Below, one piece after another: positions 17,417 through 23,864 of a stretch of DNA of 43,622 bases. This DNA is from Nitrospirota bacterium (lineage in GTDB: Bacteria; Nitrospirota; Thermodesulfovibrionia; Thermodesulfovibrionales; Dissulfurispiraceae). The number at the start of each line of letters is the position of its first letter. The stretch's first letter is position 1. The DNA lies in the NCBI GenBank assembly GCA_023476565.1, contig JAMCVZ010000036.1, forward strand, positions 1 through 43,622. Reading direction: 5' to 3'. The position numbers and the translations under genes are program-made. A model generated the notes under the pieces. That model saw nothing but the letters and a program-made list of their open reading frames with translations. It did not search any database and had not been told where the DNA came from.

Positions 17417-17956
17417 TCACAACCAGTATTCCGGATATTTTCTGTGCCTTGAGAGGTTATTTAAGACAAGGGCAACTGCCAGCAGGATGAGGGCCCCGAG
17501 GCCGACAGGCACAAAGGGATAAAGAAACCCGAGCTTATGCACTTTCTCCCCGCCGATAACAGCAATTAATGCGGTGGCGCCCCCCGGCGGGTGCACGGTC
17601 CTCGTTACAAGCATTGCCGCTACCGCGAACGAGACAGCAAGGGCGGCGGCTACCCACAGGGTCCCGCCGAAGAGTTGGTAGCATGCCACGCCGGCAAGCC
17701 CTGATATTATATGTCCGCCGATCAGATTTCGCGGTTGCGCCAACGGGCTTTTGATCGCTGCGTACACAAGAACTGCCGAGGCGCCGAAAGAGCCTATTAT
17801 CAGGGTCAAATCCATCGGCTCAAAGAACTTCGAGGAAAGATACCCGCAAAAGCCGATACCGATAACAGAGCCGAACCATGACCAGAGCACTTCGCTGAAT
17901 CCGACCCCTGGAGGGCTTTTTGCCCCGCCTTTCATTTTCAACAGGTAATTTCTCAT
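17417..17956 (-). CDS. HPP-family integral membrane protein
   Basis: A 179-residue membrane protein with about four to five helices. The family signature TVHPPGGATALIAV lies at about 120-133. HPP proteins of cyanobacteria and chloroplasts have been reported to transport nitrite; bacterial members are mostly uncharacterised. The gene overlaps the CBS-domain gene upstream by 4 bp. Other bacteria carry HPP and CBS domains fused in one protein, so the two gene products probably form one regulated transporter. Its placement opposite norC hints at a nitrite or NO-related role, but that is inference. Confidence 0.88.
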   Translation of the reverse strand: MRNYLLKMKGGAKSPPGVGFSEVLWSWFGSVIGIGFCGYLSSKFFEPMDLTLIIGSFGASAVLVYAAIKSPLAQPRNLIGGHIISGLAGVACYQLFGGTLWVAAALAVSFAVAAMLVTRTVHPPGGATALIAVIGGEKVHKLGFLYPFVPVGLGALILLAVALVLNNLSRHRKYPEYWL

Positions 17957-18537
17957 TGTTTCGCTGCGGACCTCACAATGTCGGCCCTTGAGATTATGCC
18001 TATAAGCCTGTTCTCATCATCCGTAACAGGAAGTCTTTTTATTCTCTTTGCGTCCAGGACCTTCGCGGCCTCTTTTATATCGGCCTCGGGCCTTATGGCT
18101 ATCGCCGGCGATGTCATGAAGTGCGCAACTTTATCCAGTCCCTTGCGTTCGGGCAGCGGTTCCCCCAGTAAATGCCGTACTATATCTCTGAAGGTATGAC
18201 CTCTCTTCATTCCTGTTACGGAAAGGACATCCGCCTCCGTCACGATGCCGATGACACAGCCCTCGCCGTCCACCACCGGCAGCCCGCTGATCCTGTGCTC
18301 TGCAAGGAGTCTTGCCACTTCATGGATATCGGCATGCGGGGTAACTGTTATTACATCCGTGGTCATTACAGCTCTTACCGGAATCCCGGCTGCAAGCCTT
18401 TCCTTTGCATGTCTCAGGGCAATAAGGTAGATTTTTCTAAGGTCCTCCTCGGTTATATCCATATACGTCCTCATCTCCCTGAGGGCGGCCCTTAAGTCCT
18501 CATCGGTAAGCCCGCAATCTTTCAATTCATCGGTCAT
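17953..18537 (-). CDS. Tandem CBS-domain protein
   Basis: A 194-residue soluble protein. A helical N-terminus (about 1-55) is followed by two CBS motifs: VRAVMTTDVITVTPHADIHEVARLL with GIVTEADVL (about 57-108), and VAHFMTSPAIAIRPEADIKEAAKVL with GIISRADIV (about 135-190). CBS pairs bind adenine nucleotides and gate partner proteins. The downstream partner, overlapped by 4 bp, is the HPP membrane protein. The start lies 50 bp from the FNR-type palindrome shared with norC, with TAATAT (18562-18557) as a possible minus-strand -10 box, so the pair may be co-regulated with nitric oxide reductase. Confidence 0.88.
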   Translation of the reverse strand: MTDELKDCGLTDEDLRAALREMRTYMDITEEDLRKIYLIALRHAKERLAAGIPVRAVMTTDVITVTPHADIHEVARLLAEHRISGLPVVDGEGCVIGIVTEADVLSVTGMKRGHTFRDIVRHLLGEPLPERKGLDKVAHFMTSPAIAIRPEADIKEAAKVLDAKRIKRLPVTDDENRLIGIISRADIVRSAAKQ

Positions 18538-18586
18538 GGCTCATTCCTTGTGGATAATATTAGCATACTCCGTCGATTAAAAAAAT

Positions 18587-18628
18587 ATGATTAAGATCAT
18601 GGCAGCCTGAGCATCCTTCCTCTAAAAT
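18587..18628 (+). promoter_or_regulatory. FNR/DNR-type box and -10 element for norCB
   Basis: ATGAT-TAAG-ATCAT (18587-18600) is a perfect 5-4-5 palindrome of the CRP/FNR-superfamily type (compare TTGAT-N4-ATCAA). A TAAAAT -10 box lies at 18623-18628. A start site near 18635 would put the box centre at about -41.5, the class II activator position. The leader to norC's ATG at 18713 would be about 78 nt. The box could also serve the divergent CBS-HPP operon. Confidence 0.75.
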
Positions 18629-18712
18629 GTATGTAATCAAACCGGACATTCTGAATGTGTTTGTTTGGCCAGTGCCGTAACCGGTGCTTATTTAAATCAG
18701 GGAGGTGTATCT

Positions 18713-19384
18713 ATGAGCAATAAGGGAGCAAGGAATCTCTTTATTGTGGGCAGCCTTTTTTTCTTTGCGATCTTTCTCGCCCTTAGCTTTGATACTATAG
18801 GCAAGCTTGATAAAAGGGCGCCTGAGATCACAGAGGATGTGAACGCAGGCAAGATGGTCTGGCATAAATACGATTGCATCGGATGCCATACCATTTTTGG
18901 AACAGGGTCGTACTTCGCACCTGATATGACAAAGGTAAGCGAAAGAAGACCGAAAGAATACCTCAAGCAATTCATGATGGATCCTAAATCCGTAAAACCG
19001 AATGCAGCCATGCCGAAGCTGGGGATAAGTTCTGAAGAGGCGGATCACTTGATAGCCTTTTTTGACTGGATATCAAAGGTCGATACCAATGGCTGGCCGC
19101 CCAAGCCGATCCTCGCCACCGCAGCCGGGGTGAACAGCAGGGAGCTTTCAGCAGGTCAGAAGGTTTATCAATCTCTGGGGTGCTCCAACTGCCATACGAT
19201 AAGCGGTATTGGCGGGACCGCAGGGCCTGAGCTGACTCATGTAGGCAACAAAAGAGACAGGGCATGGCTTATCGGCCACTTCAAGAATCCTGATGATTAT
19301 GTTCCGCACTCGGCAATGCCGAAAGTGAAGGCGCCCGATGCCGATATAGAACAATTAGCCGAATATATGCTTACCCTTAAATAA
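18713..19384 (+). CDS. norC: Nitric oxide reductase cytochrome c subunit with two haem c sites
   Basis: A 223-residue membrane-anchored cytochrome c that feeds electrons to NorB. An N-terminal anchor helix (about 8-26) is followed by haem site CIGCH (55-59) with Met100 (NAAMPKL) as probable axial ligand. A second cytochrome c domain follows with CSNCH (157-161) and Met202 (SAMPKV). Classical NorC has only the first haem domain, so this is a dihaem form. ATG 18713 is preferred to a longer frame opening at 18665 because GGAGG (18701-18705) lies 7 nt upstream. norB follows after 14 bp. Confidence 0.92.
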   Translation: MSNKGARNLFIVGSLFFFAIFLALSFDTIGKLDKRAPEITEDVNAGKMVWHKYDCIGCHTIFGTGSYFAPDMTKVSERRPKEYLKQFMMDPKSVKPNAAMPKLGISSEEADHLIAFFDWISKVDTNGWPPKPILATAAGVNSRELSAGQKVYQSLGCSNCHTISGIGGTAGPELTHVGNKRDRAWLIGHFKNPDDYVPHSAMPKVKAPDADIEQLAEYMLTLK

Positions 19385-19398
19385 TAGGAGGTGAAAAA

Positions 19399-20790
19399 AT
19401 GACTATAAAGCATGAAAGTCAAAAGATAGCACAGAATTTTTATACCTTTGCTGTAATTCTGTTCCTGGTCCAGATAGTAGTGGGCATAATCGCGGCACTG
19501 CAGTTCATCTGGCCCGATTTCTTTATCTTAAACTTCAACACCATAAAAACGCTCCACATCAACGCGCTCATTGTGTGGCTGCTCACGGGGCTCATGGGTG
19601 CAACCTATTATGTTATCCCCGAGGAATCAGAAACAGAGCTCTGGAGTGTTCCCCTTGCCAGGCTTCAGTTCTGGGCAACGGTTGTCGCTATAACCGCGGT
19701 GGTCCTCGGCTATATATGGGCCGGGCTCAACCCCCAGGCCAACAAGCTTGTGTTCGGCACACTGATGCTGAACGAGGGGAGAAAATACATTGAGGCGCCG
19801 CGCTGGGCGGACAATCTTATTGTCATATCAGTCCTTCTCTTCCTCTTCAACTGCTTCATGACGGTACTCAAGACAAAAAAGTGGACAGGCATTCAGGGGG
19901 TACTCCTCGGCGGACTTACTTTTCTTGCGCTCATGTACATACCGGGGATGTTTTACACCAAAAGCATGGTCAAGGACCAGTTCTGGTGGTGGTGGGTTGT
20001 GCACCTTTGGGTCGAGGGCGCATGGGAAATTATAGCAGGCGCACTGCTTGCCTTTATGCTCATGAAGGTTATCGGCGCAAAGAGAGAGGTGCTCGAGAAA
20101 TGGATGTACATAGAAGTCGGCCTCGTCATGTTTACGGGAATCCTCGGCACCGGACATCATTATTACTGGATAGGAACGCCGGCCTACTGGTTATGGATCG
20201 GCGGCATCTTCAGTTCGCTTGAGCCTATTCCCCTGCTCGTTATGGTATGGGATGCCTTCAGGACAACACGAGAAGCGAGGGCAGTAACCAACAAGGCAGG
20301 ACTCTATTACACGGTAGCACATGCGATATTCAACTTTGTCGGCGCAGGTCTTTGGGGTGTAATACACACGCTGCCCCAGGTCAACAGATGGACGCACGGC
20401 ACACAAATAACCACCGCGCACGGGCACCTTGCATTCTATGGCGCCTATGTCCTTCTGGTTATGTCTATGATATATGTGACCTTGCCCGCCATAAGGGGCG
20501 TAAAGGAGTTCGACCCGTCCAGGGCGTTCCAGGCCTTCTGGTGGATGACCATTTCCATGATTTTCATCGTCCTGACGACAACCGGCGCAGGAATGGTCCA
20601 AACCTATATGGAGAGGCTCATGGGCCTTGATTATGTTACGGTCAAGGCAAGTTACAATCTCTGGTTCTGGATAGTAAGGGCGATTTTCGGCGTCGGTTTT
20701 CTTATCGGCGTCTTGATTTTTGTCGTCGATTACTTCAAATTGGGCAAGGAGCCGGTTCGTGTAATAAAGGCTGCCCCTGAGAGGGCTTAA
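19399..20790 (+). CDS. norB: Nitric oxide reductase catalytic subunit
   Basis: A 463-residue, roughly twelve-helix member of the haem-copper oxidase superfamily that reduces 2 NO to N2O in the inner membrane. All expected cNOR residues are in place: His53 (LHINAL) and His343 for haem b, His341 for haem b3, His202, His253 and His254 as FeB ligands, and glutamates Glu206 (HLWVEG) and Glu275 (SLEPIP). The offset from the Pseudomonas enzyme is a steady 5-7 residues. It lacks the N-terminal extension of quinol-type qNOR, and the adjacent norC supports the cytochrome c-dependent type. RBS AGGAGG precedes the ATG. No norQ or norD follows within the window. Confidence 0.96.
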   Translation: MTIKHESQKIAQNFYTFAVILFLVQIVVGIIAALQFIWPDFFILNFNTIKTLHINALIVWLLTGLMGATYYVIPEESETELWSVPLARLQFWATVVAITAVVLGYIWAGLNPQANKLVFGTLMLNEGRKYIEAPRWADNLIVISVLLFLFNCFMTVLKTKKWTGIQGVLLGGLTFLALMYIPGMFYTKSMVKDQFWWWWVVHLWVEGAWEIIAGALLAFMLMKVIGAKREVLEKWMYIEVGLVMFTGILGTGHHYYWIGTPAYWLWIGGIFSSLEPIPLLVMVWDAFRTTREARAVTNKAGLYYTVAHAIFNFVGAGLWGVIHTLPQVNRWTHGTQITTAHGHLAFYGAYVLLVMSMIYVTLPAIRGVKEFDPSRAFQAFWWMTISMIFIVLTTTGAGMVQTYMERLMGLDYVTVKASYNLWFWIVRAIFGVGFLIGVLIFVVDYFKLGKEPVRVIKAAPERA

Positions 20791-20823
20791 CAGTACGCAA
20801 AGGCAATTCAATAGTACCCTCCG

Positions 20824-20856
20824 GTTCCGCAAGGGGGTTCAGTCCCCTTGCGGAAC
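20824..20856 (+). terminator. 13-bp stem hairpin after norB
   Basis: GTTCCGCAAGGGG (20824-20836) pairs perfectly with CCCCTTGCGGAAC (20844-20856) around a 7-nt loop, 34 bp after the norB stop. No T tract follows. A TATAAT box (20873-20878) comes right after, so the hairpin may separate norCB from a new transcript or stabilise the norCB mRNA 3' end. Confidence 0.55.
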
Positions 20857-20872
20857 ACCCCTCCGTTAAACG

Positions 20873-20878
20873 TATAAT
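20873..20878 (+). promoter_or_regulatory. Consensus -10 box 7 nt before the haem-fusion gene
   Basis: A perfect TATAAT ends 7 nt before ATG 20886, and no ribosome binding site is visible. Transcription would start at about the A of the ATG, giving a leaderless mRNA. A weak TTGCGG (20848-20853) lies 19 bp upstream, inside the hairpin arm. Confidence 0.4.
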
Positions 20879-20885
20879 AAGAGCC

Positions 20886-21806
20886 ATGAACAGACGGCTC
20901 TTATACATCTTCCTTGCAGCCCTCATACTATCGCTATCTCCGCCATTAGCTCTCGCAACGCCCGAATACGCGCAACAGACTGGTCTCCAGTGCAAAGAGT
21001 GCCATGTCGATGCTGTGGGGGGCGGCCGGCTCACGAAGGCCGGAGAAAAATTCCTAGAGGACTTAAAGGCGAAAGGACTCCAAAGGCAGTTGACAACAAC
21101 GCAGCACATTGTCCATTTGCTTATCGGCTATCTCCATATGATGGCGGGGATAACGTGGTTCGGCGCCATTCTCTATGTACATATACTTTTGAAGCCCGCC
21201 TATGCGTCTAAAGGGCTGCCGAAGGGCGAGCTCTTTCTCGGCTGGATATCGATGATTGTGGTCCTCATCACCGGCATACTACTCACCATAGCCAGAATGC
21301 CGTCGTTGAAGGCGTTCTATGCGACACGGTTCGGAATACTTCTGGGCATAAAGATATTCCTTTTCCTGATCATGTTCTCAAGCGCCCTGCTCGTGACGCT
21401 CTACATCGGGCCGAAACTGAGGAGGCAGAGGTCTGCGGCCAATGCCAAAGAGAAGACCGCGTGCGAATGCAATCTTGACGCCCTTTTGCAGTACGACGGC
21501 AGAGAGGGCAGGCCCGCCTATGTCGTCTACAACGGCGCCATTTACGACGTCTCGAAGAGTAAGCTCTGGAAAAACGGCTCCCATATGAGAAAGCATCTGG
21601 CGGGGCACGATCTGACCGATGCATTGAAAACCGCTCCTCACGGGGAGGATAAAGTCCTCGCCATGCCCGTAGTCGGGACCCTCAGGGCGACCGTGGGAAA
21701 ACCTCTGAGGCCCTTCCACGAAAGGCTTTTTTATTTCTTTGCGTACATGAACCTCGCCCTGACCTTTCTTGTCATATTTGTCATCTCTCTCTGGAGATGG
21801 TGGTAG
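20886..21806 (+). CDS. Membrane multihaem fusion: c-type haem, CopD-like helices and cytochrome b5-like domain
   Basis: A 306-residue protein of unusual build. A signal peptide (about 1-24) is followed by one c-haem site CKECH (36-40) in a GGGRLTKAGEKFL context. Three membrane helices (about 75-100, 116-137, 150-175) resemble the CopD/DUF-type b-haem bundle. A cytochrome b5-like domain (about 195-265, with histidines at 233, 237 and 241 in the HMRKHLAGHDLTDAL stretch) precedes a last helix (283-303). The design suggests electron transfer across or along the membrane, perhaps toward NorC. Placement directly behind norB supports this, but no family member with known function was recognised. Confidence 0.7.
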   Translation: MNRRLLYIFLAALILSLSPPLALATPEYAQQTGLQCKECHVDAVGGGRLTKAGEKFLEDLKAKGLQRQLTTTQHIVHLLIGYLHMMAGITWFGAILYVHILLKPAYASKGLPKGELFLGWISMIVVLITGILLTIARMPSLKAFYATRFGILLGIKIFLFLIMFSSALLVTLYIGPKLRRQRSAANAKEKTACECNLDALLQYDGREGRPAYVVYNGAIYDVSKSKLWKNGSHMRKHLAGHDLTDALKTAPHGEDKVLAMPVVGTLRATVGKPLRPFHERLFYFFAYMNLALTFLVIFVISLWRWW

Positions 21807-21808
21807 GT

Positions 21809-21851
21809 ATGATTTATCTCATACAATCCCCTCATGCGTTCGTGTTATAAA
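21809..21851 (+). promoter_or_regulatory. FNR-like box and -10 for the polyferredoxin gene
   Basis: ATGAT-TTAT-CTCAT (21809-21822) differs from the perfect palindrome at one base and extends to GTATGAT-N4-CTCATAC. A TATAAA -10 lies at 21846-21851. The box centre is 42.5 bp before ATG 21858, so a class II promoter starting at that ATG would give a leaderless transcript. The box begins 3 bp after the upstream stop codon. Confidence 0.55.
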
Positions 21852-21857
21852 ATAAGC

Positions 21858-22823
21858 ATGGACAACGGAAGATTTTTAAATGCCGCCCGAAAAGCCACCC
21901 GGATAGGCTTTATACTGTTTATATTCCTCATGCCTGTCCTGGACATCCTGCGGTATGATACCGCAACAAAAGAACTCATCGTATTCGGCACGGTATGGGG
22001 GCTGGGTCTCAAGCAGGGGGTTTACGCTGACCAGAGCATCTCCGGCTCGCTGCATATAGCCCTGGCATTTTTTCTAAAGGCTATTCTGCCCTGGATATTC
22101 ATACTCGCCATATTCCCTCTGCTCGGTTATTTAACGGGCAGGTTTTTCTGCGGCTGGCTCTGCCCGGAAGGGGCGCTCTTTGAATGGGCCGATTACCTGA
22201 CCCTCAAACTGCTCGGCAGGAGGAGCATCTATGGCACAAGGCCGAATGATCCTGTTGTAATACAGAGCAATCGAGTTCCTTACGGCATACTTGCGTTATT
22301 GAGCTTAACAATAATACCGCTGCTCGGCGGGGTAGCGCTTACAGGCTACTTCGTAGCGCCAAAAACCATATGGACGCAGATTATCAATTGGAAATTCACC
22401 TTCGGGGTGAAAGCCGGCATACTCGGTGTCGCCATATACATGCTCATGACCTCGCTCCTGGTAAGGCACGTGCTCTGCAGATTTGTCTGCGCTGCAGGAC
22501 TGATGCAGATGCTTTTCGGCTGGGTCAGTCCCGTATCCTTAAGGCTAAAAATGGATACCGCCCGATTGGCTGATTGCACCGATTGTAAAGGCTGTGAAAG
22601 GGCATGCTTCATGAATGTCATGCCGAGAAAGAATAAACGGGACATATCGTGCGTCAACTGCGGGGCCTGCATAGCCGCCTGCAATAAGGAACTCGGCAGC
22701 GGCAGGGGGCTCTTCCACTACAGCCTTGGAGAACGCTGCGTCTCTCCCCGCGAAAACTGCAGGGGATTGGGGCATGCCCCCTCCCGCACGGATATCCGGG
22801 ACACTTTCGAAATGAACACATAA
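21858..22823 (+). CDS. NapH/CcoG-like membrane polyferredoxin
   Basis: A 321-residue membrane Fe-S protein. Several hydrophobic helices carry CGWLCP (98-103) and CRFVC (207-211), the paired cysteine motifs of the NapH/NosR/CcoG group. Two 4Fe-4S sites follow: cysteines 240, 243, 246 and 250, then 265, 268, 271 and 275. Such proteins move electrons from the quinol pool to periplasmic reductases or help metal-centre maturation. A longer frame begins at ATG 21834, but the -10 box at 21846 lies downstream of that codon, so 21858 is preferred. Being in the nor island, it may supply electrons to or mature the NO-reducing system; no NosZ or NapA is seen. Confidence 0.85.
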   Translation: MDNGRFLNAARKATRIGFILFIFLMPVLDILRYDTATKELIVFGTVWGLGLKQGVYADQSISGSLHIALAFFLKAILPWIFILAIFPLLGYLTGRFFCGWLCPEGALFEWADYLTLKLLGRRSIYGTRPNDPVVIQSNRVPYGILALLSLTIIPLLGGVALTGYFVAPKTIWTQIINWKFTFGVKAGILGVAIYMLMTSLLVRHVLCRFVCAAGLMQMLFGWVSPVSLRLKMDTARLADCTDCKGCERACFMNVMPRKNKRDISCVNCGACIAACNKELGSGRGLFHYSLGERCVSPRENCRGLGHAPSRTDIRDTFEMNT

Positions 22824-22849
22824 TTTAGCATAATTTAGTATTATCTCTG

Positions 22850-22867
22850 TGACCTCTTTTTCGGTCA
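22850..22867. promoter_or_regulatory. TGACC-N8-GGTCA inverted repeat before the cupin gene
   Basis: TGACC (22850-22854) and GGTCA (22863-22867) form an inverted repeat 25 bp upstream of the cupin ATG. It follows a direct repeat of CATAATTTAG (22819-22828 and 22829-22838) that overlaps the preceding stop codon. The arrangement could be an operator, but no known regulator is recognised. Confidence 0.35.
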
Positions 22868-22891
22868 AATCCCAATAAAAGGAGACATCTT

Positions 22892-23206
22892 ATGGAAACG
22901 CTGGATCTCAAAAAACTGATAAAATTTTATCCTGGCAAAATCTCAAGGGAAATGCTTTCCGACAAACCTGAAATGCGTATTGCGCTTATGTGCCTGAATG
23001 AGGGGCAAAAGCTCGATCCCCACAAGGCGCCCCTAAGGCTGCTTATGTACTGCGTCCAGGGCAAGGGAACATTCATTGTCGGCGACGAGCGTATAGAAGC
23101 AGATGAAAAGACCTGCATACTTTGTGATCCTATGGTCCCCCACGGGTTTGAGGCCGACAAAGGGGAAAAGCTTGTCGTAATGGCCGTTGTTACCCCGGTT
23201 GAATAG
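22892..23206 (+). CDS. Small cupin-domain protein
   Basis: A single-domain cupin of 104 residues. The beta-barrel signature is spread over LDPHKAPLRLLMYCVQGKGTFIVG and the later VPHGFEA, and the histidines at about 44 and 84 could bind a metal. AGGAG lies about 8 nt before ATG. Cupins in this size class act as sensors, small isomerases or dioxygenases; which of these applies is unknown. It is the last plus-strand gene of the NO island and might sense or detoxify a reactive nitrogen product, but that is only context. Confidence 0.82.
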   Translation: METLDLKKLIKFYPGKISREMLSDKPEMRIALMCLNEGQKLDPHKAPLRLLMYCVQGKGTFIVGDERIEADEKTCILCDPMVPHGFEADKGEKLVVMAVVTPVE

Positions 23207-23268
23207 TTAATGCACAGCGGCGATATCGGCCCGTCTCAGCAACTCCTGCCGGAAGGCTGTTCGAGAAG

Positions 23269-23310
23269 CCGGCTCCCGGATAAATATCAAGATATTTGGG
23301 GCAAAGCCGG
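23269..23310. terminator. Compound hairpin between convergent cupin and RseC-like genes
   Basis: An outer stem CCGGCT (23269-23274)/AGCCGG (23305-23310) encloses an inner stem AAATATC (23282-23288)/GATATTT (23291-23297). It lies between two convergent genes, as a bidirectional transcript end would, but has no T tract. Confidence 0.4.
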
Positions 23311-23318
23311 GCAGGATA

Positions 23319-23816
23319 CTAACAGCCCGAGATGTAATGTTCAGCCGTCCTCTCCTCTTCAGATTGAAATGTTCCGGTATTTCCGGCGCCGGACAGCACT
23401 TTCTTAATTTCGAGTGATGACGAGGAGTCGAGGCGCCTTAATCGTTTCAGCGAATACAGCGAGGCAATTATGAATGCGGTGAATCCTGAAATAACATCAA
23501 GCGGGGAAAGACGGAAGTATTCTCCAAGGAGGTGGCCTCCTAATGTGCCGAAGACAAGAGAGGCGCACGGAATGATGTAGGACAAAAGGTAGCCCCTCAA
23601 CTGGACGTCCTGGTCGAGCCCGATTGTTACGGTATCTCCTATCAGGGCCCCGGCGGAGTTTTTCAGGGTCAGCACCCTTGTATGCCCCCCGGGCCTGCAC
23701 AGGCCTATCTTTCCTGCTCCGCAGCCCTTGCACGGCTCTCCGCCCTGCAGGAGAATAACGGCGCTCTTGCCATCCAGCTTTACTACTGTCCCTGTTTCAG
23801 GAATTGTCGGCTTCAT
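23319..23816 (-). CDS. RseC/SoxR-reducing-system family membrane protein
   Basis: A 165-residue protein. The N-terminal domain has Cys29, Cys32 and Cys40 in EPCKGCGAGKIGLC, as in the RseC Fe-S or redox motif. Two adjacent hydrophobic helices follow (about 73-95 and 100-121, from RGYLLSYIIPCASLVFG). RseC-family proteins work with Rnf/Rsx complexes, help keep SoxR reduced, or modulate envelope stress; the exact role here is open. The start ATG 23816 lies 41.5 bp from a perfect FNR-type palindrome with an AT-rich -10 between, so the protein probably belongs to the NO regulon of the island. Confidence 0.82.
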   Translation of the reverse strand: MKPTIPETGTVVKLDGKSAVILLQGGEPCKGCGAGKIGLCRPGGHTRVLTLKNSAGALIGDTVTIGLDQDVQLRGYLLSYIIPCASLVFGTLGGHLLGEYFRLSPLDVISGFTAFIIASLYSLKRLRRLDSSSSLEIKKVLSGAGNTGTFQSEEERTAEHYISGC

Positions 23817-23821
23817 GCTTT

Positions 23822-23864
23822 AGAATATAATGAAACCATCGGCAACGTTTATGATTTAAATCAT
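23822..23864 (-). promoter_or_regulatory. FNR/DNR-type box and -10 for the RseC-like gene
   Basis: ATGAT-TTAA-ATCAT (23851-23864) is a perfect 5-4-5 palindrome. On the minus strand TATATT (23829-23824) or TATTCT (23827-23822) supplies a -10 box. The box centre is 41.5 bp from ATG 23816, so a class II promoter would start transcription at the initiation codon. No ribosome binding site precedes that ATG. Confidence 0.7.

Follow-up and report, generated by a model that had tools for sequence, protein, structure and literature searches.

A conserved CRP/FNR-type palindrome upstream of norCB and a putative nitric oxide regulon in Thermodesulfovibrionales

A conserved operator in the norCB island

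The promoters of the norCB nitric oxide (NO) reductase genes, of a polyferredoxin gene and of an RseC-like gene in a Nitrospirota bacterium (Dissulfurispiraceae) carry exact or near-exact copies of one palindrome. Its general form, ATGAY-N4-RTCAT, is conserved upstream of norC in relatives and probably marks a regulon governed by one CRP/FNR-family activator. The stretch of DNA analysed, referred to here as the window, comprises 43,622 nt (GCA_023476565.1, JAMCVZ010000036.1), with the island in question at 17417–23864. All evidence is comparative, that is, drawn from sequence comparison. The boxes and the −10 element of norCB are as follows:

18587–18600, no strand assigned: box 1, ATGATTAAGATCAT, an exact palindrome in the divergent promoter of norCB (+) and CBS-HPP (−)
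18623–18628, + strand: −10 element TAAAAT of norCB, after a 22-nt gap from box 1
21809–21822, + strand: box 2, ATGATTTATCTCAT, with one mismatch, in the promoter of the polyferredoxin gene
23851–23864, − strand: box 3, ATGATTTAAATCAT, exact, in the promoter of the RseC-like gene

Exact ATGAT-N4-ATCAT is present at 18587–18600 and 23851–23864 and nowhere else in the window; two copies were never reached in shuffled sequence, where the mean was 0.06. A preliminary description of this DNA had recorded three palindromes and no other such site. This holds for the exact copies; two further one-mismatch sites are found at 20557 (inside norB) and 42455, and the count of sites with up to one mismatch (5 observed versus 2.28 expected) is not significant alone. 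Box 2 is backed by relatives in which the polyferredoxin gene is preceded by a box at the same position, and its CTCAT right half is shared by some of them (L125, L132). All three boxes lie at the class II distance from a −10 element (21–23 nt), as previously described: besides the TAAAAT of norCB, TATATT is located 21 nt downstream of box 3 on the − strand and TATAAA/TTATAA 22–23 nt downstream of 21809. On the − side of box 1, towards CBS-HPP, a weak GCTAAT is found 22 nt downstream. Because this is the right distance, control of both divergent operons from the single site at 18587 is plausible, a reading limited by the close relatives L043 and L051, which have a second box for CBS. The genome as a whole (2.67 Mb) contains six exact copies of the box, four of them intergenic.

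Conservation across relatives

NorB relatives from 60 relatives of the window's own genome and from named genomes gave 67 norCB loci. Almost all belong to metagenome-assembled genomes of Nitrospirota/Thermodesulfovibrionales, together with Magnetobacteria, one Syntrophaceae and one Aquificaceae. At 61 species-level loci the region upstream of norC was covered, and ATGAY-N4-RTCAT was sought within ~250 bp, with dinucleotide-shuffled upstream regions and the other open reading frames (ORFs) of the same loci as controls. The box is present in 54/61, compared with 0.15/61 on average (maximum 2) in the shuffled regions and 26/482 of the other ORFs, some of which are themselves NO-type genes (enrichment p about 1e-46). 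The motif is thus rare before unrelated ORFs; the preliminary description had named an equal frequency at unrelated loci as fatal to its proposal. A T directly precedes the box in 54/54 cases, though it was not selected for, and a −10-like peak occurs 22 nt downstream in the 54 aligned promoters, the same offset as in the window. The box columns approach 2 bits and the flanks hold about 0–0.3 bit. Given an invariant box between flanks almost without information, shared ancestry of whole promoters does not explain the conservation.

The palindrome also recurs upstream of orthologues of the other boxed genes, as had been anticipated: 10 of 14 CBS genes, 3 of 4 RseC-like genes (at the same distance as in the window) and 23 of 46 polyferredoxin genes with an exact ATGAY box, the CTCAT variant being carried by others. 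Gene order is reshuffled between genomes, and the boxes stay with norC, CBS and the polyferredoxin gene. No box of their own was found before norB (0/66), the CopD-cytochrome b5 fusion gene (0/21) or the cupin gene (0/16), all of which are downstream in operons. Since they lack their own box, the CopD-cytochrome b5 and cupin genes belong to the regulon only as downstream operon genes. The earlier picture of one NO-response block is supported for the boxed genes and narrowed for these two; the NO reading gains from boxes before hcp, RIC, c552-type nitrite reductase and multihaem cytochrome genes elsewhere in these genomes.

Abutting pairs of ATGAY boxes, with centres exactly 14 bp apart and the downstream box at the class II distance, were also seen. 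Ten distinct pairs occur, in the norC promoters of L118, L122, L125, L127, L128, L132, L133, L134, L143 and L151 and in the promoter of a COX1-like gene (L160/L240). In another three pairs (L247, L250, L254) the distance is 23 bp.

Genes of the island

Domain matches agree with the gene identities given in the preliminary description:

17417–17956, − strand: HPP family membrane protein, putative nitrite transporter (PF04982, 3.6e-60)
17953–18537, − strand: CBS-pair protein, in an operon with HPP (PF00571, 2.1e-33)
18713–19384, + strand: NorC-like subunit with two cytochrome c domains (PF00034, PF13442, PF22085)
19399–20790, + strand: NorB, catalytic subunit of cytochrome c-dependent NO reductase (cNOR) (PF00115, 1.8e-65)
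20886–21806, + strand: CopD domain/cytochrome b5 domain fusion (PF05425, PF00173)
21858–22823, + strand: NapH/CcoG-like membrane polyferredoxin (TIGR02163, 2.8e-18)
22892–23206, + strand: cupin-domain protein, same operon direction (PF07883)
23319–23816, − strand: RseC/MucC-like membrane protein (PF04246, 2e-13)

NorB matches the Pseudomonas aeruginosa cNOR subunit 3o0r_B (E 9e-116), with the catalytic His/Glu motifs HLWVEG.WE, GTGHHY.WIG and AHGH.AFYGAY aligned; judged by this alignment, it is a genuine cNOR subunit. The start of norC is more likely the ATG at 18713, with the Shine-Dalgarno sequence GGGAGGTG nearby. A second, diverged norCB is present in the same genome (L065; G000:C15:26334-27641; NorB 52 % identical), and no ATGAY box was found near its norC.

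In relatives the HPP and CBS genes recur as a pair that changes position jointly in the vicinity of norCB. For cyanobacteria/chloroplasts, an HPP protein is reported to transport nitrite (as cited in PMC7438415). The CopD-cytochrome b5 fusion is linked to norCB in 21/67 loci. It has an N-terminal CKECH motif of the haem c type (CxxCH) and therefore may also bind haem c. The cupin gene is near norCB in 16 loci.

The polyferredoxin gene more likely starts at 21858 than at 21834, which places its ATG ~35 nt after box 2; the ATG of the RseC-like gene is 34 nt after box 3. Start codons of these two gene types fall 33–35 nt past the box edge in the window (21858, 23816), in L047 (9639) and in L043, L049, L051 and L052. 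Since they coincide with the predicted transcription start, leaderless mRNAs are predicted for both.

The wider regulon

Genome-wide sites were inspected in five genomes. About half of the pattern matches lie inside ORFs and represent background; the intergenic ones were read for downstream genes. A box precedes hcp in G016 only (L227; Prismane 1.5e-163), a RIC-type haemerythrin gene with a ferredoxin-like partner in the window's genome (C59), G016 and G046, a c552-family cytochrome gene (NrfA-type nitrite reductase; L047/L049), a multihaem cytochrome gene (L194) and a second polyferredoxin gene (C57 of the window's genome, G005, G013). Boxes are also found before CopD-like and NifU-like genes and, in relatives, before DUF1858 and HPP-CBS genes. 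Gene types such as hcp, RIC, c552 and multihaem cytochromes are usual clients of NO regulators (PMC1274295). The RIC gene was dropped as a co-occurrence test, being too rare (the window's genome, G016 and G046). A reversed-pattern control for the genome-wide counts was likewise dropped as misleading, as an excess appeared also in the regulator-less genomes G002, G006, G018 and G052; the shuffled and other-ORF controls took its place.

A gene for a 135-aa COX1-like membrane protein (L153:2177-2584; orthologues L237–L274) is present in 36/60 relatives and boxed in 32 of these 36, one of the 32 cases coming from L176. It is absent from the window's genome, and in many order-level relatives it is convergent with the gene of the candidate regulator described below. 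Exact boxes were additionally seen in the window's genome at G000:C43:741 (a NifU-like gene) and C44:14903 (a NuoE-like [2Fe-2S] gene next to cooS); these genes are possible further members.

A candidate regulator

The window's genome encodes seven proteins of CRP/FNR type whose C-terminal match is complete. One of them, G000:C56:21517-22176 (−), here called the C56 regulator, has the recognition helix TTVETAIR and is the best candidate. An orthologue is present in 26/26 relatives with this norCB clade and absent from 14/34 others; in G016 its gene is found no more than 3 kb from norCB. The helix region LTKQDIAEMVGTTVETxIR is invariant around TTVET.IR. Relative to FNR, Val208, Glu209 and Arg213 are kept and Ser212 is replaced by Ile. 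Specificity of CRP/FNR proteins at this base pair depends on these helix positions. The Ile at FNR's Ser212 could explain why the first half-site base is A instead of T. Helix positions R180/E181 have been tied to base specificity in the CRP/FNR family (PMC1274295).

The FFGGVAVMRGFPYPANAV segment of the C56 regulator is without the Glu and Arg of the cAMP cassette. No invariant Cys was found among 18 orthologues, nor were FNR-type N-terminal Fe-S cysteines. This makes both cAMP and an Fe-S cluster of the FNR type unlikely. His134 is invariant, and haem binding through this residue is possible. In HcpR, NO is sensed through haem, for which Met68 is a ligand (PMC12750200). An AlphaFold model (pLDDT, predicted local distance difference test, 84) compared by Foldseek has a CRP fold and shows no ligand class.

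Interpretation and alternative explanations

Taken together, it is probable that a single CRP/FNR-family activator, with the C56 regulator as best candidate, acts on these boxes in class II position and runs an NO and nitrosative-stress regulon in Thermodesulfovibrionales and related Nitrospirota. A dimer on TATGAY-N4-RTCAT, centred near −41.5, would activate sigma-70 promoters and so switch on NO reduction by NorCB. Putative nitrite transport by HPP-CBS would be co-activated, as would the polyferredoxin, CopD-cytochrome b5, RseC-like and cupin proteins as partners in electron supply or repair. Elsewhere in the genomes the same activator would serve hcp, RIC, c552-type nitrite reductase and multihaem cytochromes. 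NO would be the ligand, perhaps through haem, although nitrite or redox could also be what is sensed.

Several observations weigh against this explanation. An exact box is missing at seven norC loci. A one-mismatch copy is present at two of them, the box lies before the polyferredoxin gene instead at one and before an upstream gene at another, and no box was found at L120, L135 and L152. Genome-wide pattern counts do not separate genomes with the candidate regulator from those without it, and the p-value of its co-occurrence with norCB, 8e-5, ignores phylogeny. In G059 a boxed COX1-like gene is present with no detectable regulator orthologue. In family f1, which includes the window's genome, the regulator gene has pyruvate:ferredoxin oxidoreductase genes as neighbours, and no box is seen in its vicinity. 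Lastly, in sequence and in fold the candidate is closest to mycobacterial CRP/GlxR, not to DNR.

It is doubtful that anoxia, redox or nitrite rather than NO is what the regulator senses, with the NO genes as one part of an anaerobic-respiration regulon. The boxes before NuoE-like, NifU-like and multihaem cytochrome genes would fit such a signal, yet the best-conserved targets (norCB, hcp, RIC) are NO-specific and the C56 regulator is without FNR-type cysteines. That a different CRP/FNR paralogue binds the same boxes in the same regulon is unlikely, even with at least seven proteins of this type in the window's genome and with box and target occurring in G059 without the candidate. Paralogue co-occurrence was tested for the L001 type and the L007 type. 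As general regulators both tested types were rejected, the L001 type (HcpR-like neighbourhood) being absent from 22 and the L007 type from 16 of the 26 norCB genomes. Moreover, the L005/L007 helices (RETVTR) fit G at this base under the R180 rule (PMC1274295).

A palindrome of another factor type, an NsrR/Rrf2 or Fur-like repressor, is very improbable. ATGAT/ATCAT half-sites do occur in Fur-type boxes too. However, the 5-4-5 spacing and the constant 20–24 nt to the −10 element are the geometry of a class II CRP/FNR activator, and the published NsrR motif is gATGyAT-N5-ATrCATc (PMC1274295). Chance palindromes or plain promoter ancestry might be entertained from the one-mismatch count of the window, and are refuted to near certainty by 54/61 against 0.15/61, the invariant box and the unconserved flanks.

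Returning to the NO activator, we lean towards the view that it represents a NO-sensing CRP/FNR subfamily at the level of the phylum, which reads an operator code of its own, TATGAY-N4-RTCAT, linked to Ile at FNR's Ser212. Its regulon would include HPP-CBS, CopD-cytochrome b5, polyferredoxins, RseC-like and 135-aa COX1-like proteins not previously tied to NO. Aquifers and the subsurface commonly harbour Nitrospirota with norBC, which may contribute to N2O production. With an operator defined and a candidate regulator named, predictions follow directly for each genome in the order, and a number of membrane and redox genes that had been uncharacterised gain a place in NO metabolism. The change of half-site from TTGAY to ATGAY alongside a single helix residue, together with the TTGAC boxes at a Syntrophaceae norCB, offers a testable case of regulator-operator co-evolution.

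Comparison with known NO regulons

No paper on a Nitrospirota NO regulon was found in a literature search within open-licence papers. Published operators comprise TTGAT for DNR, TTGcg for NnrR, TTGAC or TGTGA for HcpR1 and GTAAC for HcpR2, as well as that of NsrR; none is ATGAY (PMC1274295). The palindrome had been called FNR-type, which is apt for its CRP/FNR class II geometry and not for its half-site, ATGAY rather than the canonical FNR/DNR TTGAT. With Escherichia coli FNR the system shares the 5-4-5 palindrome, the class II position and the three retained helix residues; it differs in the Ile for Ser212, the missing Fe-S cysteines and the half-site.

The DNR regulon of Pseudomonas and β-proteobacteria is similar in that a CRP/FNR activator of nor genes acts on a 5-4-5 palindrome (PMC1274295). 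However, the DNR box is CTTGATnnnnATCAAG and here it is TATGAYnnnnRTCAT, and recognition helix, gene set and phylum are all different. No DNR-type TTGATnnnnATCAA box was found, the half-site being ATGAY in 54/54 boxed norC promoters. The NnrR regulon of α-proteobacteria likewise has NO-responsive CRP/FNR control of nor genes, but with the box ctTTGcgnnnncgCAAag (PMC1274295).

The HcpR1 regulon of δ-proteobacteria (TTGACnnnnGTCAA; hcp, frdX) shares an FNR-type palindrome, hcp and ferredoxin-like targets and an anaerobic host. In contrast, the half-site here starts with A in place of T, no target is better conserved than norCB, and the occurrence of the HcpR-like paralogue L001 does not follow that of norCB. 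Published HcpR operators (TTGAC, TGTGA or GTAAC type) are not what these ATGAY promoters carry. At the Syntrophaceae norCB (L135; NorB 73 % identical), two TTGAC-N4-GTCAA boxes, TTGACTTAAGTCAA and TTGACTCAGGTCAA, are found instead of ATGAY, matching by sequence the δ-proteobacterial HcpR1 type. At this one locus norCB appears to carry the operator of the local lineage, as a lineage-specific regulator would predict. The putative Nitrospirota NO regulon is a lineage-specific variant of the DNR/NnrR/HcpR type, from which it differs in its half-site and in having member genes new to such regulons.

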